DNA of 64,000 bases from Thermoproteota archaeon. GTDB lineage: Archaea > Thermoproteota > Thermoprotei_A > Sulfolobales > Pyrodictiaceae. Positions 22,559 to 43,567 of the stretch are shown here, piece by piece (within the stretch, counting starts at the first letter, position 1; each line of letters opens with the position of its first letter). A program made the translations under genes and the position numbers. The stretch lies in NCBI GenBank assembly GCA_013153145.1, contig JAADEY010000042.1, positions 1 through 64,000 on the forward strand. Direction: 5' to 3'. The notes under the pieces are model-generated. The model saw only the letters and a list, made by a program, of their open reading frames with translations, was not told the origin of the DNA and did not search any database.

Positions 22559-23626
22559 GTGGTCGAGGTAAGGCTCGAAAACGTGACAAAAAAGTTCGGC
22601 AGGGTAGTAGCACTGAGAGACATAAACCTAAGGTTCAGGGACGGCAAGTTCACCGTAGTCCTCGGCCCAAGCGGCTCCGGCAAATCAACACTCCTATACC
22701 TCATAGCAGGCATATACAAGCCGACAAGAGGCCGCATATACTTCGACGACAAGGACGTCACAAACCTACCCCCAAACAAGAGGAACGTCGGCCTAGTCTT
22801 CCAGAACTACGCCCTCTACCCACACATGACCGTCTACGAGAACATAGCATTCCCACTGAAGCTCCGGAAGACACCCCAGAGGAAGATAGACGAGAAGGTG
22901 CATGAAGTGGCGAAGCTCCTCCACATAGAGGAGCTCCTAGACCGCTACCCCCACCAGCTGAGCGGCGGACAGCAGCAGAGAGTAGCACTAGCAAGAGCAC
23001 TGGTGAAGGAGCCCGCCGTACTCCTCCTAGACGAGCCACTATCAAACCTAGACGCACTGCTAAGGGTCAAGATAAGGGCGGAGCTCAAGAAGCTGCAGGA
23101 GCAGCTAGGCATAACAGCGATCTACGTGACCCACGACCAGGCAGAGGCGATGGCGCTTGCGGACGAGATAATAGTCATACACCGCGGAGTCATACAGCAG
23201 AAGGCACCACCAAAGAAGATCTACGAGGAGCCCGCAAACCTCTTCGTAGCAGGCTTCATAGGAAACCCGCCGACGAACCTCCTGAAAGCCAGGCTCGTGG
23301 ACGGCGCCATAGAGCTCGGAGGCTCCAGGATAACCATCCCGGCCAGGCTCCCCCGCGACGGCTACATTGTAGTCGGGTTCCGCCCAGAACACGCGTCAGT
23401 GGATGCTGAGCCCCTCGAGAACCATGCATCGATCCCCGGCGAGGTCTACGTGGTCGAGGACATGGGCAAGGAGAAGATACTGACGATAATCATAGGGGGC
23501 GAGATGGTCAAGGTAATAGCGCCGCCGACAGCCGAGTTCAAGCCGGGAGACAAGGTATACGTAAACATACCGTACAGGAGGATAATGCTCTTCGACCCAG
23601 AGACCGGGGCCAGGATAGAAGCCTAG
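22559..23626 (+). CDS. Sugar ABC transporter ATPase (MalK/MsmK type)
   Basis: 355 residues from a GTG. Walker A GPSGSGKST, Q-loop VFQNYALYPH, signature LSGGQQQRVALARAL, Walker B LLLDEPLSNLDA, switch His in YVTHDQAEAMAL, and a C-terminal TOBE/OB regulatory domain (about 240-355). Powers the sugar importer encoded just upstream. Its TAG shares the tetranucleotide CTAG at 23623-23626 with the stop of the convergent RHH gene. Confidence 0.93.
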   Translation: MVEVRLENVTKKFGRVVALRDINLRFRDGKFTVVLGPSGSGKSTLLYLIAGIYKPTRGRIYFDDKDVTNLPPNKRNVGLVFQNYALYPHMTVYENIAFPLKLRKTPQRKIDEKVHEVAKLLHIEELLDRYPHQLSGGQQQRVALARALVKEPAVLLLDEPLSNLDALLRVKIRAELKKLQEQLGITAIYVTHDQAEAMALADEIIVIHRGVIQQKAPPKKIYEEPANLFVAGFIGNPPTNLLKARLVDGAIELGGSRITIPARLPRDGYIVVGFRPEHASVDAEPLENHASIPGEVYVVEDMGKEKILTIIIGGEMVKVIAPPTAEFKPGDKVYVNIPYRRIMLFDPETGARIEA

Positions 23627-32042: not shown

Positions 32043-33383
32043 ATGGGTCGTGTGCTTGGAGTGAGGGGTGGTGTGGTGGTGGCTGAGGCTAGCTATGGCT
32101 ATAGTATTGAGCCCGTGCCTGCTGAGAAGAGGCATTACAGCTTCTGGGATAACTTCGCCATCTGGTTCGGGGCTGGTGTATCGATAGCGGAGTTCTGGGC
32201 TGGGGCGCTCCTGGTGCCGTACCTCTCCCTGCCGGCAGCCCTGGCGGCGATCATCATTGGGCATGCGATAGGTAACCTCCTCCTAAGCATCATTGCATGG
32301 ATGGGCGTTGAGTCCGGCGTGCCGACGATGGTGTTGTCGCGCGGCTCTCTGGGGAGGAGGGGTAGCTATCTCCCCTCGATACTCAACTATCTCCAGTTGA
32401 TAGGCTGGACCGCCGTCATGCTCGTCGTGGGCGCTGAGGCCATGCAGGCTGTGACGTCCAGCTTCATCCATGCAGACCTCTACCTATTATGGATAGTTGT
32501 GCTCGGCTTCCTCGTCACCGTCTGGAGCCTCATTGGGCCGGAGAAGTGGAGGGGGTTGGAGAAGGTCTCGGCGGCGCTCCTGCTGGTGCTCACTGCGTGG
32601 CTGACGTACGTGACTATATCGAGGTTTGGCTTCTGGAGGCTCTGGAGCATGCCGGGTAAGGGTGGTATGAGCTGGTGGGTGGGCCTAGACCTGGTCGTCG
32701 CGATGCCCGTTTCGTGGGCGCCCCTAGTAGCCGACTATGCGAGGTTCTCGAGGAGTAGTGGCGGCGGCTTCTGGGGCACCTATGTGGGGTACTTCATCTC
32801 GAGCGGCCTCTTCTACTTCATAGGCGCGTTGACTAACATGGCTGTCGGGAAGCCGGACCCCATATCGATTATAGCGTCGTATGGGCTTGGGATACCAGCC
32901 ATGCTTATAATAGTGTTCTCGACGACTACCACGACGTTCCTCGATGTATACTCGGCCGCGATAACGTTCAAGAACATCAAGCCCGACGCGGACGCGAGGA
33001 AACAGATAATCCTCGTAGGCGTTCTCGGCACGCTCCTAGCCATGGTGTTCCCCGTCGAGCAGTACGAGTGGTTCCTACTGCTGATCGGCGGGGCCTTCGT
33101 ATCGCTCACAGCGATAATGGTTGCCGACTTCCTCGCCAGGAGGTGGCTGTATAGGGATGGATGGAGGGTGATAAGGGTTGGCGTGGACGTGGACTGGGCC
33201 TCAATAGTGATATGGGGGGTTGGCTTCGCGTTCTACATGCTGCTGGCCGCCGTAAGCCTCCTGGGGCTCAGGATACCGGTGGTTGACTGGATAGCCGATA
33301 ACTTCGGCTCAACGATACCGACACTGATACTAGTCACGGCGCTGTACGTGGCGAAGCTCGCAGCTGAGAGGGGGAGGGGCTAG
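32043..33383 (+). CDS. NCS1-family nucleobase/cation permease
   Basis: 446 residues from ATG 32043; a GTG at 32073 is an alternative after a GGAGTGAGGGG element. About twelve membrane helices; FWDNFAIWFGAGVSIAEFWAGALLVP and PVSWAPLVADYARFSRS are typical of cytosine/allantoin/thiamine-precursor permeases. Substrate cannot be told. The stop shares a CTAG with the convergent gene. Confidence 0.88.
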   Translation: MGRVLGVRGGVVVAEASYGYSIEPVPAEKRHYSFWDNFAIWFGAGVSIAEFWAGALLVPYLSLPAALAAIIIGHAIGNLLLSIIAWMGVESGVPTMVLSRGSLGRRGSYLPSILNYLQLIGWTAVMLVVGAEAMQAVTSSFIHADLYLLWIVVLGFLVTVWSLIGPEKWRGLEKVSAALLLVLTAWLTYVTISRFGFWRLWSMPGKGGMSWWVGLDLVVAMPVSWAPLVADYARFSRSSGGGFWGTYVGYFISSGLFYFIGALTNMAVGKPDPISIIASYGLGIPAMLIIVFSTTTTTFLDVYSAAITFKNIKPDADARKQIILVGVLGTLLAMVFPVEQYEWFLLLIGGAFVSLTAIMVADFLARRWLYRDGWRVIRVGVDVDWASIVIWGVGFAFYMLLAAVSLLGLRIPVVDWIADNFGSTIPTLILVTALYVAKLAAERGRG

Positions 33384-34021
33384 GCCATCGAGGCAACCCT
33401 CCTCGCCAGCCTCAACCCAGTTTCTGCAAGCCTCTCCAACTCCCCCCTCTCATGCGGGAGCTGGGCGTGTATGAAGAGGCGCGGGGGCTCGGGGTAGGCT
33501 GCTAGGTGCCTAACATACCTTGCACCGAGGAGCCTCAGCCCCTCGAGGAGCCTCTCGGCCAGCCTCTCGTCGCCGTAGACGCGGTAGGTGTAGCCGTCAA
33601 CCCTCCTAACACCTATCAATGGGCCGTGGACGCCCGCCCTACGGTCTCCTAGAAGGTAGGTGTATTTTCTCACGAGGTGCGCCTCGCCGGGTGGTTTTAG
33701 GGATAGGTCGTAGACCAGGTAGATGCGGTCGTAGCGCCTCGTGGCGAGCGAGAACGGCATGTATAGGAGGCTCTGCCTTGGGAGCGTTGTGACCGCCGCG
33801 TAGGCTTTGGGGACGAGGCTGTCCCTCAACCGGTACTCGGCCGTATAGCCGACGTAGAGCCCGACCATAGTATACTCCTTGTCCACGGGCCTGAGGCCTG
33901 CCTCGAGCGCCTTGACGCTCTCCTCGAGGATGCGCAGGTTCCTCCTCCTGCCGCGGAAGAACTGGAAGGTCGAGGCTACAGCGACACCCACCAGGCCCCA
34001 GAAAACCAGCACCGGTATCAT
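33380..34021 (-). CDS. Membrane-anchored protein downstream of ArsA ATPase
   Basis: 213 residues with an N-terminal membrane helix (IPVLVFWGLVGVAVASTFQF) and a soluble domain facing the cytoplasm if the RGRRR following the helix obeys the positive-inside rule. Family unknown. The ATG overlaps the stop of the ArsA gene by 4 bp, indicating close functional coupling, perhaps as a membrane partner of that ATPase. Confidence 0.7.
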   Translation of the reverse strand: MIPVLVFWGLVGVAVASTFQFFRGRRRNLRILEESVKALEAGLRPVDKEYTMVGLYVGYTAEYRLRDSLVPKAYAAVTTLPRQSLLYMPFSLATRRYDRIYLVYDLSLKPPGEAHLVRKYTYLLGDRRAGVHGPLIGVRRVDGYTYRVYGDERLAERLLEGLRLLGARYVRHLAAYPEPPRLFIHAQLPHERGELERLAETGLRLARRVASMA

Positions 34022-34947
34022 GGCAGGAGCGCCTCCAGCCTCGCTGCGACCTCGCGGAGCCTATCGATCCCGCGCGGCTCCCTTGGGAGTAGTGGTATCG
34101 TCGCGAAGGGCTCCTCTTTGAAGAAGCTCCTCGCCTCCTCAAGCACCCTCCTACCCTCCTCCCGGTACTTATTGACGACCACACCGCCGACCCTCGCCCC
34201 TATCGACTTGAGGAACCGGTACGTCCTCTCGGCCTCCAGGAGCGGGAGCGTCTCCGGGTTTATCACGAGTATTATAGTTGACCCCTTCACGAGCCGCTCG
34301 ATCGCCTCCCTGTACGTCTCCTCGAGGCCCGCAAGCTCCCTGTAAACGGGGTCGTCGCCCGGGCTTGAGGGGAGGACGTACTCCTCCCCGCCCAGCCTAA
34401 CCCTGATCTCCTCCCCGGTCGCGTTCACTATCATCCTCCTCCTCTTCAGTATCTCCATCCTCAGCCGCATCAACCCCCTGACCCATTGAAGGGCCGAGAG
34501 TGGGAGGCTGAGTATCCTCAGCAGCATCCCGGTCGGGGGAGGGTCTATGACTATGTCGTCGAAGCCTCCCCCGCTGCGGAGCATGCGCAGCAGCTCCTCG
34601 AGCACCGCGTTCTCCTCCACTCCCGGGGCGTACCTCATAACCCTCAACGTGCCCTCGAGGTTGAACGCCTTGAGATGCCTGTAGAGGTATGAGAGTTTCT
34701 CGGTGAGCCCGGACATGTACCTCTCCACTACCGCCTCATAGTCCACCTCGGCCGCGTATAGGTTCCTCCAAACCCTCCTCGGCTCACCCCCAAGCTCCAC
34801 CCCCAACACGTCACCGAGGTTGTGGGCGGGGTCTATGCTGGCCACGAGAACCCTCCTGCCAAGCCTCTCCGCCAACAGCACCGCGAACGCCGCCGACGAA
34901 GTCGTCTTCCCGACCCCACCCTTGCCAGCGAACACGTAGACTGCCAA
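34018..34947 (-). CDS. ArsA/Get3-family ATPase (first copy)
   Basis: 309 residues. Deviant Walker A GKGGVGKTT (8-16), SIDPAHNLGDVLG (switch I), DDIVIDPPPTG (Walker B-like), LVINPETLPLLEAERT. Dimeric ATPase family that includes arsenite pump ATPases and tail-anchored protein targeting factors; no CxxC or ArsB partner is seen, so targeting or an unknown role is more likely. Residues encoded by 34745-34815 are identical, to the nucleotide, with the second ArsA-like gene at 42.7 kb. Confidence 0.85.
   Translation of the reverse strand: MAVYVFAGKGGVGKTTSSAAFAVLLAERLGRRVLVASIDPAHNLGDVLGVELGGEPRRVWRNLYAAEVDYEAVVERYMSGLTEKLSYLYRHLKAFNLEGTLRVMRYAPGVEENAVLEELLRMLRSGGGFDDIVIDPPPTGMLLRILSLPLSALQWVRGLMRLRMEILKRRRMIVNATGEEIRVRLGGEEYVLPSSPGDDPVYRELAGLEETYREAIERLVKGSTIILVINPETLPLLEAERTYRFLKSIGARVGGVVVNKYREEGRRVLEEARSFFKEEPFATIPLLPREPRGIDRLREVAARLEALLP
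34745..34815 (-). repeat. 71-bp inverted identical segment, copy A (inside ArsA gene)
   Basis: Read on the minus strand this segment is base-for-base identical with 42782-42852 on the plus strand. It encodes GDVLGVELGGEPRRVWRNLY followed by AAE in both genes. Immediately outside it both DNA and protein diverge sharply. Confidence 0.95.
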
Positions 34948-34986
34948 GGCTCGGAACCCCGGATGAACGGGAGGCTCATGGCGGCC

Positions 34987-35262
34987 TTAAGTTGGCTCGA
35001 AGAGGCCGCCTATCTCGCCGATTAGGTCGTCAAGCCTCCCGGCCTCCTCGAGCATAGCCATTATCTCGGGCAGCATGTATGGGGCTAGCCGGGCGGCCGC
35101 CCCGCTGAGGGGTGTCGGCATCCCGGCCAGGCTCCCCAGCACCAGGGTCGCAAAGACGGTCTCGAGCTGCCTGAGCTCCGCCTCGATATACTCTACCGCT
35201 TGGCCTGCGAGGGCTAGGCGTAGGTGTTCTAAAAACCGGTTGAGTGGGGCTGGGAGCCTCAA
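34987..35262 (-). CDS. Small helical protein between cstA and the ArsA gene
   Basis: 91 residues from a TTG, all helical (AVEYIEAELRQLETVFATLVLG...LPEIMAMLEEAGRLDDLIGEIGGLF). No family recognised. Placed 6 bp after cstA and 39 bp before the ArsA gene, so part of the same minus-strand operon. An AGGAGTGG element lies in the end of cstA. Confidence 0.65.
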   Translation of the reverse strand: MRLPAPLNRFLEHLRLALAGQAVEYIEAELRQLETVFATLVLGSLAGMPTPLSGAAARLAPYMLPEIMAMLEEAGRLDDLIGEIGGLFEPT

Positions 35263-35268
35263 CCCTAT

Positions 35269-37143
35269 TCATCCACTCCTTGCCTCTGCAGGAACCATTC
35301 TCTTAACCCTAACCTCTCTGAGCCAGAGGGCGAACAGCATCAGGTTTAGTGCTAGGCCGAGGGCCGTTATGCCTCCCACGGCGAGCCCGGTTACGGTATG
35401 AGTCCCTCCCTTGGCTAGGTAGACCGGCACCACCGCCGCCTCGTACCATAGCAGGGCGAGCGTCACCGTCGCCCACATGAACACCGCCGGCGCGACGACC
35501 AGCGCCTTCCCGAGCCTGGTGGCCCTGGTTGCCCTTATCACCCAGACAGCTATCGTCATGAGGGCCAGGCTGCTGAGCAGCTGGTTCATGCCGGCGAACG
35601 CGGGCCATATGACGAGGAACTGCTTGGTGGCGGCCAGCGACATGCCTAGGGCCACTGCTAGTATCGAGGCGAACCACTTGTTCGACACAACCCTGTACAG
35701 GCCGGGGCTCCTCTGCCGGAGGGGCTCGACGAGCTCCTGCCAGGTGAACCTGGCCAGCCTCGTCGCGGTGTCGAGGCTGGTGAGGGCGAACGCCGTTATC
35801 CAGATCGTCGCGAAGACTGTTCCCACGGCGACGGGTATGCCGAAGGCAGCGTTGAGCGTGTAGCCGTAGCTGCCGGGTATGACGACCCACTTAACCTTGC
35901 TGGCCAGTATAGCGTAGTACTTCCCGAAGACCGCCGGGTTAGCAGCCATGGCCTTCAGGACCTCGCTGGGCGGGGCGCCGGCGGGGAGGTGGAGGCTGGC
36001 GGCGATCGAGGAGAGCAGCTTCGCCAGGGCACCATTACTCTTAACAGCCGCCGAGACCGCCGAGATGAATGCAGGCAGGCCGAAGGCAGCCATGGTGCCG
36101 ACAACCATCGTCGCCAGGAACCCCTCAGTCTCCATACCGCCATAGGCTATGAGGAGGCCGTGGAGCTCGTTGTCCAGCTGCTTGCTCGTAGTACCGGAGC
36201 TGACGAGGCTATGGAAGCCCGATAGGGCGCCGCAGGCTATTATCAGTGGAACCGCGGGCCAGAACGGGGACGGCTGCCCGCCAACAACATTGGCTGAGAA
36301 CATGGTGAACGCCGGGAACGTCATAGCTCCACCGCCGGTCGCCAGGAGGGCTATCAGCGCGACGCCGCCGAGGACGAGGCTCGCCCATAGTATGAAGGCG
36401 TTCATGTAGTCCCTGGGCTGTAGGAGCACCCAGACCGGCAGGCTGGCTGCGAGGATTATGTAGACAGTCAGTATGCCGAGCCACTCGTAGAAGCCTAGGC
36501 TGAAGACCCCCGCCGTCTGTATTATGAAGCCAACCCATATCGACAATATGATGAATATTATTGATAGTATGGTGCCAGCCGCGTAGCCCAGCTTGGTCCT
36601 GTACATGACGAGGCCCACGGGCACGGCGAGGAATATCAGCAGGAACGCCGCGACACCCGCGCCGGGGACCTTCGCGAAGAGCGCTGATATTACGAAGCCG
36701 AACGCCGCTATGACTAGCAGCAGTGAGAACCAGATATACGTGTTGAACGCGTAGAAGGCGCTCCTCCCGAGATACTTGCCCGCAACCCAGCCTATGCTAC
36801 GCCCCTCATGCCTGACGCTGACCATCAGTGATAGGTAGTCGTGGACTACTCCTATGAAGACGTTGCCGAACCATATCCAGAGCAGTGCAGGCAGCCATCC
36901 CCATGCAAGCGCTATCGCTGGCCCGACTATGGGGCCGGCGCCCGCTATCGAGGCGAAGTGGTGGCCGTATAGGACGTACTTGTTGGCAGGCACATAGTCT
37001 ACTCCATCATACATCCTGTGGGCTGGCGTCTGCTGCCGCGGGCTGGCGCCTACGACCTTGTACTGGAGGTACCTGCCGTGGGTGTAGTAGAATATCACGT
37101 AGAGGGCTATCGCTAGTAGTATGAGCCAGCCCGCTTGGAACAA
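35269..37143 (-). CDS. cstA: Carbon starvation protein CstA (peptide/pyruvate transporter)
   Basis: 624 residues with about sixteen membrane helices. Typical N-terminal region YDGVDYVPANKYVLYGHHFASIAGAGPIVGPAIA and the WIWFGNVFIGVVHDYLSLMVSVRHEG stretch, plus a central SSGTTSKQLDNE motif. CstA proteins take up peptides or pyruvate when preferred carbon is scarce, fitting a peptide-fermenting life. First gene of a minus-strand operon with the 91-residue protein, ArsA ATPase and membrane-anchored protein. Confidence 0.93.
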   Translation of the reverse strand: MFQAGWLILLAIALYVIFYYTHGRYLQYKVVGASPRQQTPAHRMYDGVDYVPANKYVLYGHHFASIAGAGPIVGPAIALAWGWLPALLWIWFGNVFIGVVHDYLSLMVSVRHEGRSIGWVAGKYLGRSAFYAFNTYIWFSLLLVIAAFGFVISALFAKVPGAGVAAFLLIFLAVPVGLVMYRTKLGYAAGTILSIIFIILSIWVGFIIQTAGVFSLGFYEWLGILTVYIILAASLPVWVLLQPRDYMNAFILWASLVLGGVALIALLATGGGAMTFPAFTMFSANVVGGQPSPFWPAVPLIIACGALSGFHSLVSSGTTSKQLDNELHGLLIAYGGMETEGFLATMVVGTMAAFGLPAFISAVSAAVKSNGALAKLLSSIAASLHLPAGAPPSEVLKAMAANPAVFGKYYAILASKVKWVVIPGSYGYTLNAAFGIPVAVGTVFATIWITAFALTSLDTATRLARFTWQELVEPLRQRSPGLYRVVSNKWFASILAVALGMSLAATKQFLVIWPAFAGMNQLLSSLALMTIAVWVIRATRATRLGKALVVAPAVFMWATVTLALLWYEAAVVPVYLAKGGTHTVTGLAVGGITALGLALNLMLFALWLREVRVKRMVPAEARSG

Positions 37144-37183
37144 GCTTCTACTTCACCCGTCAACCAAGGGCCATGCCCTCCCA

Positions 37184-37195
37184 CGTTAAAAATAG
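37184..37195 (-). promoter_or_regulatory. TATA box for the cstA operon
   Basis: TATTTTTAACG on the minus strand, about 45 bp before the cstA start at 37143, in the only AT-rich patch of the intergenic gap. Confidence 0.55.
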
Positions 37196-37248
37196 TATAG
37201 CCGGATACGTACTAGTCAGTACCAGGCCTTACATACACGTGTACGGCC

Positions 37249-39408
37249 CTAACCACGGCGGAGACGGAGCCCGGCCAAAACACCCGCCTCGGCCACGACG
37301 AGGAGGAGCAGCAGTGGTACGAGGATGTTAAAGCCTGGAGCAGCCTCCCCGACGCGCTCACCTACGCGGCCCCCGGGAGGCAGTATCGACTTGAGGCCCT
37401 CACCTCCACCGGGAGACCCTATCGTGACGGTGAACGCCTTCACAAGCTTCTCAACGCTCCTCCCGACACCCTCCACGACGAGGCCCGGGGAGTACATGAA
37501 CGGCTTCACGGTCATCGTGCCGGCCTCCACTGGGAGCGCTGCGTAGTCGACGCCCCCGGGCAGTATTGAGACCATCTTCCCGTCGACCAGCACCTCTACC
37601 GGCTGGTCGCCGGTGATGCTTAGGAGGCTCAGCCCGTAGGCTGTTACGCCGCGGCTTGAGACGAGCAGGCCTCCCCTAGCAGCTATGAAGTGGTAGTAGT
37701 GCTTGCCGTCGACGACTCCTATCGACAGCAGGCCGGAGACGTCGGGGCTCGCTATGGCCGTGGAGTTGACGGGTGATGGCCTAAGCCCGACCAGGTACTC
37801 GGAGTAAACCCTCCTCATGGAAACTATCTTTGCGTCGCCGCCGACACTAGCCATGATGGTCTCATCGGGCTTCGAGAAGGGCACCGAGCCGGAGACGATA
37901 TCGTACTCCATGGGGTAGAAGAGGCGGGCGTCAAGCCACTCCGGGGCCTTAATGTAGGGCTTCGAGACGCTGCCATGGCCGCTGAGGGGCACGGGGAGTG
38001 CAGGTGTTCCCAGCAGCTCCTGCTCTAGGAGGTTGAGGACTGCCAGGTCGTCCCACCCCTGCGTCGTCGTTATAACGTAGTGTGCCTTGCGGTCACGCAG
38101 GTACTCGGCCGCTGCCGTGGCGAAGGCGTCTCCAAGCCTCCCGGTCTTGTAGAGGTTGCGGAGGGTCAGCATCTGCAGCTCAACCACGCCGTGGAGATCC
38201 AGGCTTACAAGCCCCCTCTCGATGTCGACGCCGCCTATGAGGAGCACTGATATCCTTGAGGAGCCTAGGTAGGCTGCGGCCTTCCCGTGGCTTAGGAGGT
38301 ACTCGGCCATCGACGGCGGGTTGAACGGGGGTTTGAGGAGCCTGGTGTCCCAGGCGGCGTTTATGCATGCGGGTGTTATGACCAGCATGGGTGACTCGGC
38401 TGAGGCGAAGTCCTTCCTTGTTAGGAGGTCTGTGTACGCGGAGCCGAGGGCGCCGCGGGGCTCGTAGTCGACGAAGCTCTTCCCCGAGCCGTGCATGAAC
38501 GGTATGAATACCGTGCCCGGCCCTATGCTTGAGAGTATCTTCTTGCCGGCCATGTTGCCCAGGGTGAGGGTGTGGAAGCTAACACTCCTGAACCCGTCCG
38601 TGAGCCCGGCCGTCGAGAGCATTGAGGCGTAGGTGTCCCCGGTCATGAGCGTCCAGGCGAAGGGGGCTCCGCCGGCGTAGACTAGGCTTATCGAGTTCGT
38701 AGCCGCCCTAGACATCCAGGCGTTCAACGCGTCTATGTAGTTCTTCAGCAGCGTCGCGTTGCTGAAGGGTATCCTGCCGACCGCGACCTCCGGGCACCAG
38801 TCATAGTCCGGGTCCATGTAGAAGTAGTCTGTCGGGACTAGGCTGAACCAGCGGCCCACCTCTCCCCCGACCGCGCTGTGGTAGTAGGCTGAGGGCGGCA
38901 CCTCCGAGGCCGAGCCGACTATGAGGAGGTAGTGCAGGCCCCTGCCGAGCATGCTTCGCTCGAAGGCTATTATCGCTTCTGAGAGGGTCTCGTTGAACCC
39001 CTTGATCCTCGAGGCGTTGACTGAGAATGGTGGCGGGGGTGCGGGCTTGTAGTGCCTAGCTATATAGCCCGTATCATAGACCACCACCCTGAGCCCCATG
39101 GACTGGTGCATCGAGGCTAGGCGCCCGACGAGCTTCATTGTCTCGCTGGTGGCGTTCGCCGGCACTATTATCACCATTAAGTCTCCATGGGGAGGGCTGC
39201 ACGCGCCGCTGGGCATGGCCCTCGGGGACTCCATGTAGCCCCCGGGGAGGCTGGAGAGGAGCTTGTTCAGCCTCATACTAGGATAGAAAGCCTTAACCAC
39301 GACGTGGGCTGTCGGCTTGAAACCCAGGCCCAGCGCGGGGGCGGCTGGTAGGAGCAGCAGGGCGATGAGGATTGGTGGGAGCAGCCTCCTCCACTCCACC
39401 CGGCGCAC
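37249..39408 (-). CDS. Secreted gingipain-like (C25) cysteine peptidase with C-terminal anchor
   Basis: 719 residues. Signal peptide (about 10-27, LPPILIALLLLPAAPALG) and a terminal membrane helix (NILVPLLLLLVVAEAGVLAGL) followed by RLRRG. The peptidase C25 fold is indicated by LHYLLIVGSASEVPPS, VPTDYFYMDPDYDWCPEVAVGRIPF, FIPFMHGSGKSF (His near residue 305) and MLVITPACINAAWD (Cys near 348), the His-Cys dyad of the family. Probably a cell-surface peptidase feeding peptide uptake, consistent with nearby cstA. Divergent from the next gene. Confidence 0.78.
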   Translation of the reverse strand: MRRVEWRRLLPPILIALLLLPAAPALGLGFKPTAHVVVKAFYPSMRLNKLLSSLPGGYMESPRAMPSGACSPPHGDLMVIIVPANATSETMKLVGRLASMHQSMGLRVVVYDTGYIARHYKPAPPPPFSVNASRIKGFNETLSEAIIAFERSMLGRGLHYLLIVGSASEVPPSAYYHSAVGGEVGRWFSLVPTDYFYMDPDYDWCPEVAVGRIPFSNATLLKNYIDALNAWMSRAATNSISLVYAGGAPFAWTLMTGDTYASMLSTAGLTDGFRSVSFHTLTLGNMAGKKILSSIGPGTVFIPFMHGSGKSFVDYEPRGALGSAYTDLLTRKDFASAESPMLVITPACINAAWDTRLLKPPFNPPSMAEYLLSHGKAAAYLGSSRISVLLIGGVDIERGLVSLDLHGVVELQMLTLRNLYKTGRLGDAFATAAAEYLRDRKAHYVITTTQGWDDLAVLNLLEQELLGTPALPVPLSGHGSVSKPYIKAPEWLDARLFYPMEYDIVSGSVPFSKPDETIMASVGGDAKIVSMRRVYSEYLVGLRPSPVNSTAIASPDVSGLLSIGVVDGKHYYHFIAARGGLLVSSRGVTAYGLSLLSITGDQPVEVLVDGKMVSILPGGVDYAALPVEAGTMTVKPFMYSPGLVVEGVGRSVEKLVKAFTVTIGSPGGGEGLKSILPPGGRVGERVGEAAPGFNILVPLLLLLVVAEAGVLAGLRLRRG

Positions 39409-39464
39409 CCGGTGGGCGTCTGGCGGGTAGAGGGTTAAACCATGCTGCGGCCCTAGCCCTCCTA

Positions 39465-39929
39465 GTGGCTGCCGGCTACTCGGCAGGGTTCATCGCCGGG
39501 GTTGCTGTGAGCCCCCCGGCTTACGGGGTGTGCAGCTTCCTCCCGGTTCTCCGGCGGGCCTCCAGCAGGCCCCCCATCGGGCTTCTCCCGGTGATACTCT
39601 CCAGGAACACGTTGACTGTTGTGACGGTCTACCTCGTGTCGTGGCTGAGCAGTATGCTCGGCTACCTGGCCGCCGCCGGGGTCTCCGCTGTCACGGGCTT
39701 CCTGTGCGGCTATGGGTTCACCCCCCTCCCCCTGACCGCCTGCCTCACGCTGCCACAGAGCGTCGTTGAGCTGGCTGCACTGTACCTTGCATGCCTGGCT
39801 GGTAGGAGGAAGCGTGCAGGGTTGAAGATGCTTGCAGTATGCATAATACTCTTATGCGTTGCCGCCGTCATAGAGGTGTTCGCAACCCCCAGACTTTGCT
39901 TCCTCTTAACCTCTGCATACTGCGGGTAG
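39465..39929 (+). CDS. Small polytopic membrane protein (SpoIIM-like)
   Basis: About 154 residues from GTG 39465, which sits about 30 bp after a TTAAA element at 39431-39437 and would be nearly leaderless; a TTG at 39372 would add 31 residues overlapping the divergent peptidase gene. Four hydrophobic segments; SAGFIAGVAV, FLPVLRRASSRPP, ILSRNTLTVVTVYLVSW recall the SpoIIM/DUF95 family of stage II sporulation M-like proteins, which are common in archaea. Confidence in the family is moderate. Confidence 0.55.
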   Translation: MAAGYSAGFIAGVAVSPPAYGVCSFLPVLRRASSRPPIGLLPVILSRNTLTVVTVYLVSWLSSMLGYLAAAGVSAVTGFLCGYGFTPLPLTACLTLPQSVVELAALYLACLAGRRKRAGLKMLAVCIILLCVAAVIEVFATPRLCFLLTSAYCG

Positions 39930-39934
39930 CACGA

Positions 39935-39964
39935 AGTATTAATTATCACCAGTACAGTATTAAT
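39935..39964. repeat. Tandem AGTATTAAT elements, operator or double TATA
   Basis: AGTATTAAT occurs at 39935-39943 and 39956-39964, exactly 21 bp apart (two helical turns), upstream of the ATG at 40004. Either may serve as the TATA box; the exact spacing on one face of the helix suggests a bound regulator. Confidence 0.5.
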
Positions 39965-40003
39965 GCTGTATCTCCATGGCCCCTGCCATGGGGGTGCCCT
40001 AGG

Positions 40004-40549
40004 ATGGAGGAGCCCGCCAAGAGGATAGAAATGGTTCTCAGGGCGTACCAGGCGTATTTTCGGAGCCTAGCCTTCCAGGAGCTACCGAAGATGGCCTACC
40101 AGTACCTCGGCGAGGCGGGCTTCGTCGAGGTAGCTGAGGCACTGGCCAGGGCGACCATAGCCGCACTACCAGCACTCATAGAGGCGACGAAGGGGCTGGT
40201 AGAGATGCCGGAGTCCAAGGACCCGCTCGACGTGCTCCCGCTCCACTTCCAGTGCCACAGCAAGGCGATAGAGATAACGGGCGACCAGAGCATAGGACTG
40301 TTCAGGGCTGTGAGGGAGTCGCCTAACAGGCTTGTGTTCGAGGCAGTGCACTGCCCCTACGGGATAGAGAACCCCCTAGTCCTAGCCAGCTACGTAGGCA
40401 TCGTGGTCGGCGTGCTGAGGGCGCTGGGGGCCAAGGCATATGCATTGAGCAAGCCTGAGTCCAAGAAGTATATACGGGAGGGCTACGTTGTCTGGGGAGA
40501 GAAGACTGATGAGACCTGCAGGATCGTTGTAGAGAAAATAGAGAGGTAA
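40004..40549 (+). CDS. Uncharacterised soluble protein
   Basis: 181 residues from ATG 40004 with GGGGTG just upstream; the longer open frame to 39839 lacks coding character. N-terminal helices (RIEMVLRAYQAYFRSLAFQELPKMAYQYLGEAGFVEVAEALARA) then an alpha/beta part with conserved-looking LHFQCHSKAIEITGD and FEAVHCPYGIENPLVLASYVG. The layout recalls V4R-like or hydrocarbon-binding sensor proteins but I cannot assign it. Two adjacent elements AGTATTAAT may control it. Confidence 0.65.
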   Translation: MEEPAKRIEMVLRAYQAYFRSLAFQELPKMAYQYLGEAGFVEVAEALARATIAALPALIEATKGLVEMPESKDPLDVLPLHFQCHSKAIEITGDQSIGLFRAVRESPNRLVFEAVHCPYGIENPLVLASYVGIVVGVLRALGAKAYALSKPESKKYIREGYVVWGEKTDETCRIVVEKIER

Positions 40550-40608
40550 TGCTCACCGCCGGTGACTAAAGGGGTAATAAGTTGGGGGCCGGTAGAGACG
40601 GGAGAGAC

Positions 40609-41019
40609 ATGGAGCAAGCCTTGAGCAGCAGGGTGCATGCGAGCCGAATACTCTACGGCCGCCTCCTCGACTTCTTCGTAGAAGACTGTAGGGGTAGGAG
40701 GATCCTCGCCGCCGCGAGGCCGCACGGCGGCATGGGGGGAGGCTGGGGCTACCTAGACATTGTCGCCGCCGGCCTAGCAGCATGCATAGCATCGCAGGCC
40801 GACACCCCGAAGCCGCCCGCCGCGGGGAGGCTAGACGTCTCAGTCACCATAGACTGGTCGTCGAAGACGGTCACCGTGGAGCTCGACGCTAGGAACACGA
40901 GCATCGACTCCCTCGACTTGTCGGGCTGCATACTCTACCACCTCCTATCCTCAATGGGGTTCAGGTTTAGGATTGTTAGGAGGGAGGCTGAGGCGGCCAG
41001 GCTGCCGACGGCTAGGTAG
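40609..41019 (+). CDS. Uncharacterised protein, possibly OsmC-like
   Basis: 136 residues from ATG 40609 (TTG 40582 possible). GGWGYLDIVAAGLAACIASQAD loosely resembles the OsmC helix carrying a reactive Cys, followed by LDVSVTIDWSSKTVTVELDA strands and SGCILYHLLSSMGFRFRI. The similarity is weak and the usual second motif is not clear. Confidence 0.45.
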   Translation: MEQALSSRVHASRILYGRLLDFFVEDCRGRRILAAARPHGGMGGGWGYLDIVAAGLAACIASQADTPKPPAAGRLDVSVTIDWSSKTVTVELDARNTSIDSLDLSGCILYHLLSSMGFRFRIVRREAEAARLPTAR

Positions 41020-41055
41020 CCCCGGCCACCCCACCCACCCGATATAGGCTCCCTT

Positions 41056-41757
41056 TTGCCCCTAGCAGACCGGGTAGGGGCTGACTTGCACTGGAGTATT
41101 GAGGATAGGCCTGCGTATAGCGTGTTGAAGGTCGGGCTTGATCCTGGGGAGGAGGTTGTCGCTGAGCCGGGGGCCATGATGCTTATACGCGGCGATGTGA
41201 GCGTCGTCCCCAAGACTGGTGGCCTGCTGAAGGGGCTGCTTAGGAAGGCGCTTGGCGGGGAGAGCATCTTCCTGACTCATTACCGTGCCGGGCCTGGTGG
41301 TGGGGAGGTCTGGTTTGTGCCGCCGCTCCCCGGCGATATAGCTGCCGTGGAGCTTGACGGTTCTAGGGACTGGGTTGTGCAGGACACCAGCTACCTGGCT
41401 CACTACGGCGAGGTGGATGTAGGGGTTGCGTGGAGGGGTGGTAGGGGCCTCCTGGCTGAGGGGGAGTTGTTCTGGCTTAGGCTGAGTGGTAGGGGTGTTG
41501 CGTGGGTCAATGCCTATGGTGCTCTTGAGAGGGTTGTGGTGGGGGATGGGGAGAGGATGGTTGTCGACAACTTCCACTTCGTCGCTATGCCTGCGGACAC
41601 CAGGTACCGTATAAGGACTATCGGTGGACTCAAGGCAACCCTGTTCAGCGGGGAGGGGCTGGTCGTGGAGGTTGAGGGGCCTGCGGAGGTGTATGTGCAG
41701 ACCCGTATACTGCCGGAGCTTGCTAGGCTGCTGCGCCGCTTCATAAGGGCGAGGTAG
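41056..41757 (+). CDS. AIM24/TIGR00266-family protein
   Basis: 233 residues from a TTG; TTG 41089 is a plausible later start. Tryptophan-RNA-attenuator-like beta fold: AYSVLKVGLDPGEEVVAEPGAMMLIRGDVSV, GESIFLTHYRAGPGGGEVWF, GDIAAVELDG, WVNAYGALERVVVGDGERMVVDN. Conserved across archaea and bacteria; biochemical role unknown. Confidence 0.85.
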   Translation: MPLADRVGADLHWSIEDRPAYSVLKVGLDPGEEVVAEPGAMMLIRGDVSVVPKTGGLLKGLLRKALGGESIFLTHYRAGPGGGEVWFVPPLPGDIAAVELDGSRDWVVQDTSYLAHYGEVDVGVAWRGGRGLLAEGELFWLRLSGRGVAWVNAYGALERVVVGDGERMVVDNFHFVAMPADTRYRIRTIGGLKATLFSGEGLVVEVEGPAEVYVQTRILPELARLLRRFIRAR

Positions 41758-41808
41758 GGCATGATAGTATTCTATTGATTGTGGTAGAGGTAGGGAAATG
41801 GTTAAAGC

Positions 41809-41818
41809 CTTTATACAT
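41809..41818 (+). promoter_or_regulatory. TATA box for the V4R gene
   Basis: CTTTATACAT about 40 bp before the TTG start at 41854. A TGGAGAT ribosome site at about 41840 would lie at the very start of the message. Confidence 0.6.
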
Positions 41819-41853
41819 TCGCTACCTTTTTCTAAACCAATGGAGATCCCGCC

Positions 41854-42333
41854 TTGGCTAACACTCCAGTGCCCGGGAGGCCCGGGCTGCGAGAGATAAT
41901 AGAGAAGAACTCGATCCTCGTCGCCAAGGACATACTCGTAGACCTGTACGACAGCTCAAAGAAGCTCCTAAAGTTCGTTGGCGGATTCCTCTACAACGTG
42001 TCCAAGAAGGCCGGCAAGATGATGGCTAAGAGGCTCATGGAGCAGGGCTACATGACTAGGGAGACCTGCCTCGATGTCCTCGCCGAGTCCTTTGTCATCT
42101 CCGGCTACGCCGAGGAGGTGAAGGTGGAGGGAGACACGATAAAGATGAAGGGGACTATCTTCGGGTCTAGGATGAAGGGGGAGAAGAAGCCGGTCGACAC
42201 GCCGATAGCAGGCTTCATAGCCGGCTGGGTCGAGGAGTGCACGGGGAAGCGCGTCAAGGTCGTCGAGGAGAAGTGCATAGCTAAGGGAGACGAGTACTGT
42301 GAGTTCCGGATACAGAGTAGCCGGTTCTTCTAG
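41854..42333 (+). CDS. V4R (4-vinyl reductase) domain protein
   Basis: 159 residues from a TTG. Helical N-terminus (REIIEKNSILVAKDILVDLYDSSKKLLKFVG) then a V4R domain ending GFIAGWVEECTGKRVKVVEEKCIAKGDEYCEFRI, which shows the typical CxxxGDxxCxF small-ligand pocket. Such proteins are stand-alone sensors of hydrocarbon-like ligands. Overlaps the convergent small gene by 53 bp. Confidence 0.82.
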   Translation: MANTPVPGRPGLREIIEKNSILVAKDILVDLYDSSKKLLKFVGGFLYNVSKKAGKMMAKRLMEQGYMTRETCLDVLAESFVISGYAEEVKVEGDTIKMKGTIFGSRMKGEKKPVDTPIAGFIAGWVEECTGKRVKVVEEKCIAKGDEYCEFRIQSSRFF

Positions 42334-42541
42334 CCCCAGGCTCCTCCCCAAGGGGGGCAGCCGAGACGACCAGCGTCACCAGCAGGGTAAGGACTACGAG
42401 CACGACGACTATGCCTGGGAAGCCCCCTGCACCACCCCCATCACCCCTCACCCCTGCATGGGCAGCCGCCAGGAGGGGTGGTAGGCTGAGGAGTGCTGCT
42501 GGGAGGAGTATCCGTTTCGGGTGGATCAATAAGTGTTGCAC
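42281..42541 (-). CDS. Small exported membrane protein
   Basis: 86 residues: signal peptide (KRILLPAALLSLPPLLAAAHA), a Gly-rich linker and one membrane helix (PGIVVVLVVLTLLVTLVVSA). The hydrophobic pattern argues it is real; the last 16 residues overlap the V4R gene. No family recognised. Confidence 0.5.
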   Translation of the reverse strand: MQHLLIHPKRILLPAALLSLPPLLAAAHAGVRGDGGGAGGFPGIVVVLVVLTLLVTLVVSAAPLGEEPGARRTGYSVSGTHSTRLP

Positions 42542-42661
42542 CGTTTACTAGTTGGTTTAGGGGCTGAATAATTGCCTTCCGGCCCATATACACTCCCCTC
42601 AAATTAGCCCTCCCACCCCTCCGGCCCCCGCCTACCTGGGGGATGCGGGTTAGGCAGGCTT

Positions 42662-43567
42662 GTGAGCTTCTGGGGCAAGGGCGGTGCTGGTAAGACTACG
42701 CTGAGCGCGGCGGTTGCTGTCGCGCTGGCTGAGTCTGGGTCCAGGGTCTTGGTCTTCTCGAGTGACCCGACGCCGACGCTTGGTGACGTGTTGGGGGTGG
42801 AGCTTGGGGGTGAGCCGAGGAGGGTTTGGAGGAACCTATACGCGGCCGAGGTCTCCGAGGAGGATGTGTTGAGGATGTGGAGGGAGAGGTTCGGCAGGGA
42901 GGTCTACGAGGTCTTGTCGAGCTTCCTGCCGGTCGACGAGACAATCATAGACTATATAGCGGGCGCCCCCGGTATAGCCGATGAGTTCCTCATGTACTAT
43001 GTCTACGTCCTCCTTGGCAGCGGGGTCTACGACTACATCGTCTGGGATACGCCGGCCGCCGGGGGGAGTATAAGGCTGCTGAGGCTTGAGAGGGAGTTCT
43101 ATAGGCATCTTGGCGAGGCGGCAAGCCTCGTCCTAAGGCTGAAGACGGTGCTTGATAGGCTGCGGGGGAGGAGGCCTGGTAGGAGCCCCCTCGAGCTCAT
43201 AGAGGAGTGGAGGAGGCTCGCCGAGGACATACTCTCAATGCTGTCCTCCACGAGCCACCTACTGCACATAGTCGCTCAGCCGGATGAGCTCAGCCTATCT
43301 GTCACCGAGAGGATTGTGAGGGAGTTCGGCGAGATAGGGGCTAGGCCTAGGAGGGTGATCGTCAACATGGTGCCCGATGCCTCGATGTGCCCGGATTGCA
43401 GGCCCCTCGTCGCGGAGGCCGAGAGGTGTGGGAGGATTGTCGATGAGTTTAGGAGGCGTTATGGCGGCATAGTCTACACGGTTCCCTTCCTCGTGGAGAG
43501 GCCGCGTGGTGTTGAGAGGCTTAGGAGGCTTGGCTCGATGCTGCTTGGGGGAGTTGTGGCGGTGTAG
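42662..43567 (+). CDS. ArsA/Get3-family ATPase (second, divergent copy)
   Basis: 301 residues from a GTG. Walker A GKGGAGKTT (5-13), SSDPTPTLGDVLG, DYIVWDTPAAGGS, and a CPDC near the C-terminus (NMVPDASMCPDCRPL) that recalls the Cys pair of some Get3-like proteins. Outside the shared 71-bp block it is strongly diverged from the copy at 34 kb. No partner genes adjacent. Confidence 0.83.
   Translation: MSFWGKGGAGKTTLSAAVAVALAESGSRVLVFSSDPTPTLGDVLGVELGGEPRRVWRNLYAAEVSEEDVLRMWRERFGREVYEVLSSFLPVDETIIDYIAGAPGIADEFLMYYVYVLLGSGVYDYIVWDTPAAGGSIRLLRLEREFYRHLGEAASLVLRLKTVLDRLRGRRPGRSPLELIEEWRRLAEDILSMLSSTSHLLHIVAQPDELSLSVTERIVREFGEIGARPRRVIVNMVPDASMCPDCRPLVAEAERCGRIVDEFRRRYGGIVYTVPFLVERPRGVERLRRLGSMLLGGVVAV
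42782..42852 (+). repeat. 71-bp inverted identical segment, copy B (inside second ArsA gene)
   Basis: Identical to the reverse complement of 34745-34815 at every base, including all synonymous positions. First differing bases are immediately outside (CTT versus CTC before, CTCC versus GGAC after). Confidence 0.95.

Follow-up and report, generated by a model that had tools for sequence, protein, structure and literature searches.

Gene conversion is ordinarily associated with DNA stretches that are nearly identical, and hyperthermophiles often lack standard mismatch repair. Archibald and Roger reportedly found, in 2002, that chaperonin (thermosome) paralogues of archaea had undergone partial conversion, a case that bears a likeness to the one presented here. 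The chaperonin subunits involved are said to be far more alike than the two genes of interest in this study, A1 and A2, both of which encode Get3/ArsA-type ATPases.

In bacteria, the release-factor genes for RF1 and RF2 exemplify part-gene, non-reciprocal conversion between old paralogues (PMC4530459). As in that system, A1 and A2 are functionally distinct paralogues residing in one genome, they give conflicting signals inside and outside of a segment, and a direction can be assigned to the transfer. However, the RF1-RF2 event is old and covers nearly a whole domain (71 amino acid positions), whereas the segment shared by A1 and A2 spans 24 codons and is equal at every base. Short, patchy conversion tracts have also been documented in Sulfolobus acidocaldarius (PMC4471258), another hyperthermophilic archaeon in which tracts are very short and the flanks are not exchanged. 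Unlike A1 and A2, which share 45% of their bases, the donor DNA in those experiments is nearly identical to the recipient. Finally, a Thermococcus integrase demonstrates that short identical inverted stretches can recombine in a hyperthermophilic archaeon (PMC5495485), although in that system a reciprocal crossover flips the DNA, whereas the ATPase genes show transfer in one direction only and nothing that points to a flip.

We consider it very likely that the 71-bp block shared by A1 and A2 is a short ectopic gene-conversion tract, in which at most 71 bp of A1 were copied over A2. The process is known, and the pair adds a further example of it; the tract is unusually small, clean and recent, and the paralogues are unusually distant. 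The pair offers a clean, directional and recent conversion, viewed at single-base resolution, between genes that share only 45% of their DNA. It also cautions that the history recorded in a short part of an old gene may be that of another gene.

The shared block and the genes that carry it

The DNA analyzed, here called the window, is a 64-kb stretch corresponding to contig C16 of a draft genome (G000) that totals 1.19 Mb in 47 contigs, with a completeness of 79%. An earlier, sequence-only reading had drawn attention to a perfect inverted identity of 71 bp within two otherwise diverged ArsA-type ATPase genes located 8 kb apart, and our alignments bear this out. The two copies are equal at all 71 bases, and identity breaks off sharply at both ends. 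When A1 and A2 are aligned by codon, 71 of 72 bases match over the 24 block codons, compared to 348 of 765 (45%) in the remainder. Furthermore, the two copies occupy the same reading frame and the equivalent aligned place in both genes (Table 1).

Table 1. Features of the A1 and A2 loci, with positions given for the 64-kb window
Feature	Coordinates	Strand	Basis
A1, Get3/ArsA-type ATPase, probable patch donor	34018..34947	-	PF02374 9.5e-49; TIGR00345 169 bits (cut-off 135); orthologues with conserved neighbours
71-bp block in A1, native	34745..34815	-	A1-type sequence in the block as in the rest of the gene
Walker A (P-loop) GKGGVGKTT of A1, outside the block	34900..34926	-	sequence
A2, Get3/ArsA-type ATPase of another subfamily, probable patch recipient	42662..43567	+	PF02374 1.5e-39; TIGR00345 136 bits (cut-off 135); orthologues
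Walker A (P-loop) GKGGAGKTT of A2, outside the block	42674..42700	+	sequence
71-bp block in A2, foreign to A2 subfamily; probable converted tract of at most 71 bp	42782..42852	+	7/22 residues shared with A2 of G002 inside the block versus 150/265 outside; 24/24 shared with A1 of this genome
213-aa protein downstream of A1, conserved gene set	33380..34021	-	homologues adjoin A1 in other genomes
91-aa protein upstream of A1, conserved gene set	34987..35262	-	homologues adjoin A1 in other genomes
CstA-family carbon starvation protein, head of conserved gene set	35269..37143	-	PF02554 2.7e-129; adjoins A1 in other genomes

A repeat scan of the region between 30 and 48 kb recovered the block pair as the sole inverted pair, and in the entire window the next-longest exact repeats measure 20 bp (a palindrome) and 19 bp (a direct repeat). 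A search of 29 genomes located full copies of the 71-bp sequence only at the A1 and A2 sites, and a search of IMG/VR yielded no full copies. With no further full copy in the genome, its relatives or IMG/VR, the idea of a mobile or viral repeat was rejected.

Outside of the block, A1 and A2 are ordinary members of two old Get3/ArsA subfamilies; each matches the family profile along its full length and carries a deviant Walker A motif (GKGGxGKT). The A1 gene belongs to a conserved set (33380-37143, minus strand) in which the order cstA, 91-aa protein, A1 and 213-aa protein is kept in several families of the order; within the Pyrodictiaceae, a close copy of A1 was found only in G002, a genome of the sister genus. 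Neither the 213-aa nor the 91-aa protein that flank A1 gave any Pfam match, and a scan of contigs with A1 as the query returned a single match, to an unrelated bacterial locus. Whether the CstA-type transporter and the Get3-like ATPase are linked would be worth testing. Beside cstA lies a gene for a 719-aa protein (37249-39408, minus strand) with a match to peptidase family C25 (PF01364, 4e-26). Members of the A2 subfamily are found in the same archaeal family, where the gene stands alone with no neighbours common to all.

The block had been placed in the switch I region, a location that is approximately correct: the block begins just past the DPxxxL of switch I and reaches the next conserved strand. 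The canonical switch I sequence is DPAHxxxD; A1 reads DPAHNLGD at this place and A2 reads DPTPTLGD. The orthologues of A2 have no LGD, and the patch appears to have supplied or completed these three residues in A2.

Direction and date of the transfer

Comparison with orthologues separates the block from the remainder of A2. Specifically, outside of the block A2 shares 150 of 265 residues with its orthologue in G002 and 151 of 265 with its orthologue in genome G007. Inside the block, the corresponding values are 7 of 22 and 4 of 24, whereas A2 shares 24 of 24 residues with A1 of the same genome and 16 of 24 with A1 of G002. The two A1 orthologues are alike throughout, with 16 of 24 residues shared in the block and 140 of 279 outside. 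In the relatives, A1 and A2 carry distinct, subfamily-specific sequences at the block position, and perfect equality between the two genes is confined to this genome, in agreement with the earlier suggestion of a recent short-patch gene conversion.

Trees follow the same division. When the block is omitted, A2 groups with A2 of G002 (SH-aLRT 96) and A1 with A1 of G002 (SH-aLRT 99). In a tree of the block only, A2 nests within A1 with a modest support of 82, a result that is weak by itself because the alignment has only 26 columns. Hence the segment groups by genome and the remainder of each gene groups by orthology. An AU test of a grouping of A1 plus this A2 outside of the block gave a p value of 0.48, but this topology merely shifts the gene to the base of A2.

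Could an old motif, held in place by purifying selection and codon bias, account for the identity with no transfer at all? The block does adjoin switch I, which is conserved in Get3/ArsA ATPases (PMC10248533). If constraint were the cause, both genes would be expected to carry these 71 bp, codon for codon, in all relatives. Instead, the A1 orthologues differ at most codons of the block (43 of 72 bases equal between this genome and G002), and the A2 orthologues do not keep the block sequence at all (24 of 66 bases equal between A2 of this genome and A2 of G002). In addition, even if the amino acids are taken to be the same, the probability that all synonymous positions would be equal by chance under the codon usage of the genome is approximately 10^-9. 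Constraint with codon bias is rejected by the orthologue comparison, and we assign it practically no probability.

All eight of the block residues that separate A1 from its counterpart in G002 recur in A2. Since the A2 block equals the A1 block of the same genome, including these distinguishing residues, the donor was the lineage's own A1 and the recipient A2. Comparison of the orthologues shows a direction from A1 to A2, and an event that postdates the split from the sister genus to which G002 belongs. The nearest relatives compared belong to that sister genus, and the genome itself is an incomplete draft. The observation of zero differences over 71 sites sets an upper 95% limit of approximately 4% divergence since the event, as calculated from a simple binomial.

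Flanks, edges and possible routes of formation

The residues of A2 that lie directly before the block (DPTPTL) and directly after it (SEE) are of the A2 type, and therefore the tract can be at most 71 bp in length. The flanks are as diverged as the remainder of the two genes: A1 and A2 match at 65 of 120 bases in the section containing the P-loop and at 73 of 168 bases in the next 60 columns, with no long exact run. The native A2 sequence was probably unlike A1 at the block position as well, judging from G002, whose A2 matches the A1 block at 24 of 66 bases. With flanks and target both this diverged, classical homology-driven pairing would have found little to use. The process is of a known kind, and what is unusual is the small tract, its sharp edges and the apparent absence of flanking homology. 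A tract of 71 bp or less that seems to lack flanking homology narrows the possible routes by which it could have formed.

We propose that a segment of A1 was copied non-reciprocally, and in register, onto the matching part of A2, an inverted paralogue at a distance of 8 kb. Reading frame and register are preserved, and the patch has the same length as the segment between equivalent landmarks in A2 of G002. The transfer appears one-way, in that A1 keeps the signature of its subfamily, the flanks of A1 and A2 are non-hybrid, and there is no sign of a crossover. Such a patch could arise by short-patch, non-crossover repair as in Sulfolobus (PMC4471258). Alternatively, microhomology could guide a template switch at a replication fork, and selection would then remove the products that are out of register. 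A third route would be renewed conversion of an older A1-like patch. We infer that either short-patch conversion or a template switch is the preferred molecular route. Among the relatives of A2, the segment at the block position varies in both length and sequence, which suggests that A2 tolerates exchange there; an in-frame swap of equal length would have survived in A2 for this reason.

The third route is best seen as a variant of the favoured explanation and not as an alternative to conversion. It supposes that A2 had long carried an A1-like patch, the sole homology between the two genes, which was re-homogenized repeatedly, such that the present identity reflects only the latest round. Such a history would remove the problem of missing homology, and it might leave a pattern like that of a pair of hydrogenase genes elsewhere in the genome, which share several perfect runs (71, 55, 34, 30 and 29 bp). 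Nevertheless, a single event is simpler, and one round looks the same as several when the relatives compared belong to a sister genus. We give repeated conversion a small chance.

The arms of the block pair are identical and inverted, and the sequence-only reading had raised the possibility that recombination between them flips the intervening 8 kb. The genome carries one tyrosine recombinase gene, and for the Thermococcus integrase identical stretches of as little as 104 bp suffice for inversion (PMC5495485). However, the 71-bp arms fall below the shortest stretch tested for that enzyme, and nothing ties the recombinase gene to the arms. Moreover, a flip would yield hybrid ATPases, whereas neither A1 nor A2 is a hybrid on either side of the block and A1 retains its ancestral neighbours, which together indicate that the present order is the parental one. 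In the assembled sequence, neither the structure of A1 and A2 nor the gene order reveals a product of site-specific inversion. The idea of an inversion switch thus finds no support, and we regard it as very improbable.

Further shared runs and the reliability of the assembly

In the 671 kb of G000 that were surveyed, three further pairs of diverged paralogues contain perfect runs, ranging from 71 bp to at least 91 bp. The hydrogenase pair noted above consists of large-subunit genes from two hydrogenase clusters (L109:5965-7821, plus strand, and L122:14700-16603, minus strand), and their runs stand on a background of approximately 66% identity. Two genes for aconitase-type dehydratases are equal over 91 bp (L110:1-91 and L177:4436-4526) and 54% identical outside of this run, and two glycosyltransferase genes are equal at 168 of 169 bp (L115:1-169 and L188:6199-6367) and 58% identical outside; for both of these pairs, the two contigs end inside the shared sequence. 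The names hydrogenase, aconitase-type and glycosyltransferase derive from reading motifs and not from a profile search.

These runs also bear on whether chimeric reads or a wrong join could have put the A1 block into A2, in which case the real A2 would have its own sequence there. The genome is a draft in 47 contigs, and in two unrelated paralogue pairs a perfect run measures exactly 71 bp; an assembly parameter could account for such a coincidence. The contig ends argue otherwise. Four pairs of contigs have terminal overlaps of exactly 91 bp; a fifth pair has one of 77 bp, which also exceeds the block. The glycosyltransferase contigs stop exactly 91 bp past their last difference, and each of the two repeats that were traced through the genome forms the end of two contigs. 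The 91-bp overlaps indicate that the final assembly k-mer was most likely 91, which is longer than the block, and therefore the 91-mers that support the path through each gene should reach into unique flank. Likewise, A1 and A2 are coherent on either side of the block and in frame, and an artefact would require a pair of false joins, both at exactly homologous positions. We regard an assembly error as unlikely and give it only a slight chance.

Short transfers may recur in G000. Paralogue pairs with runs of at least 40 bp number 4 of 252 in the 671 kb from this genome, 1 of 252 in an 800-kb control sample from genome G003 (a pair that is 78% identical), and 0 of 31 in a 400-kb control sample from G007. 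The excess in G000 over the controls is not significant (Fisher p = 0.19). With respect to mismatch surveillance, 15 of 19 genomes of the family have NucS and 10 of the 19 have a MutS-type domain; neither was found in the 79%-complete G000. These observations should be read as a lead.

It is conceivable that this lineage swaps very short patches between strongly diverged paralogues unusually often, with little or no flanking homology and perhaps as a consequence of lost mismatch surveillance (NucS, MutS-type). We consider this doubtful, with a minor but appreciable chance of being correct. If true, the block shared by A1 and A2 would be one of several tracts, along with those of the hydrogenase, aconitase-type and glycosyltransferase pairs, and would form part of a record of recombination at less than 50% identity. 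Should the other tracts hold up, the lineage would represent a natural system for studying how far sequences can diverge and still recombine in hyperthermophiles.

ABC ATPase genes also contain runs of 39 and 48 bp, which were dropped as candidates since they sit in conserved motifs. Conserved motifs may explain the perfect runs, 48 and 32 bp long, in two ABC-transporter ATPase genes (positions 22799-23001 of the window and L186:2400-2614) that are otherwise approximately 68% identical.
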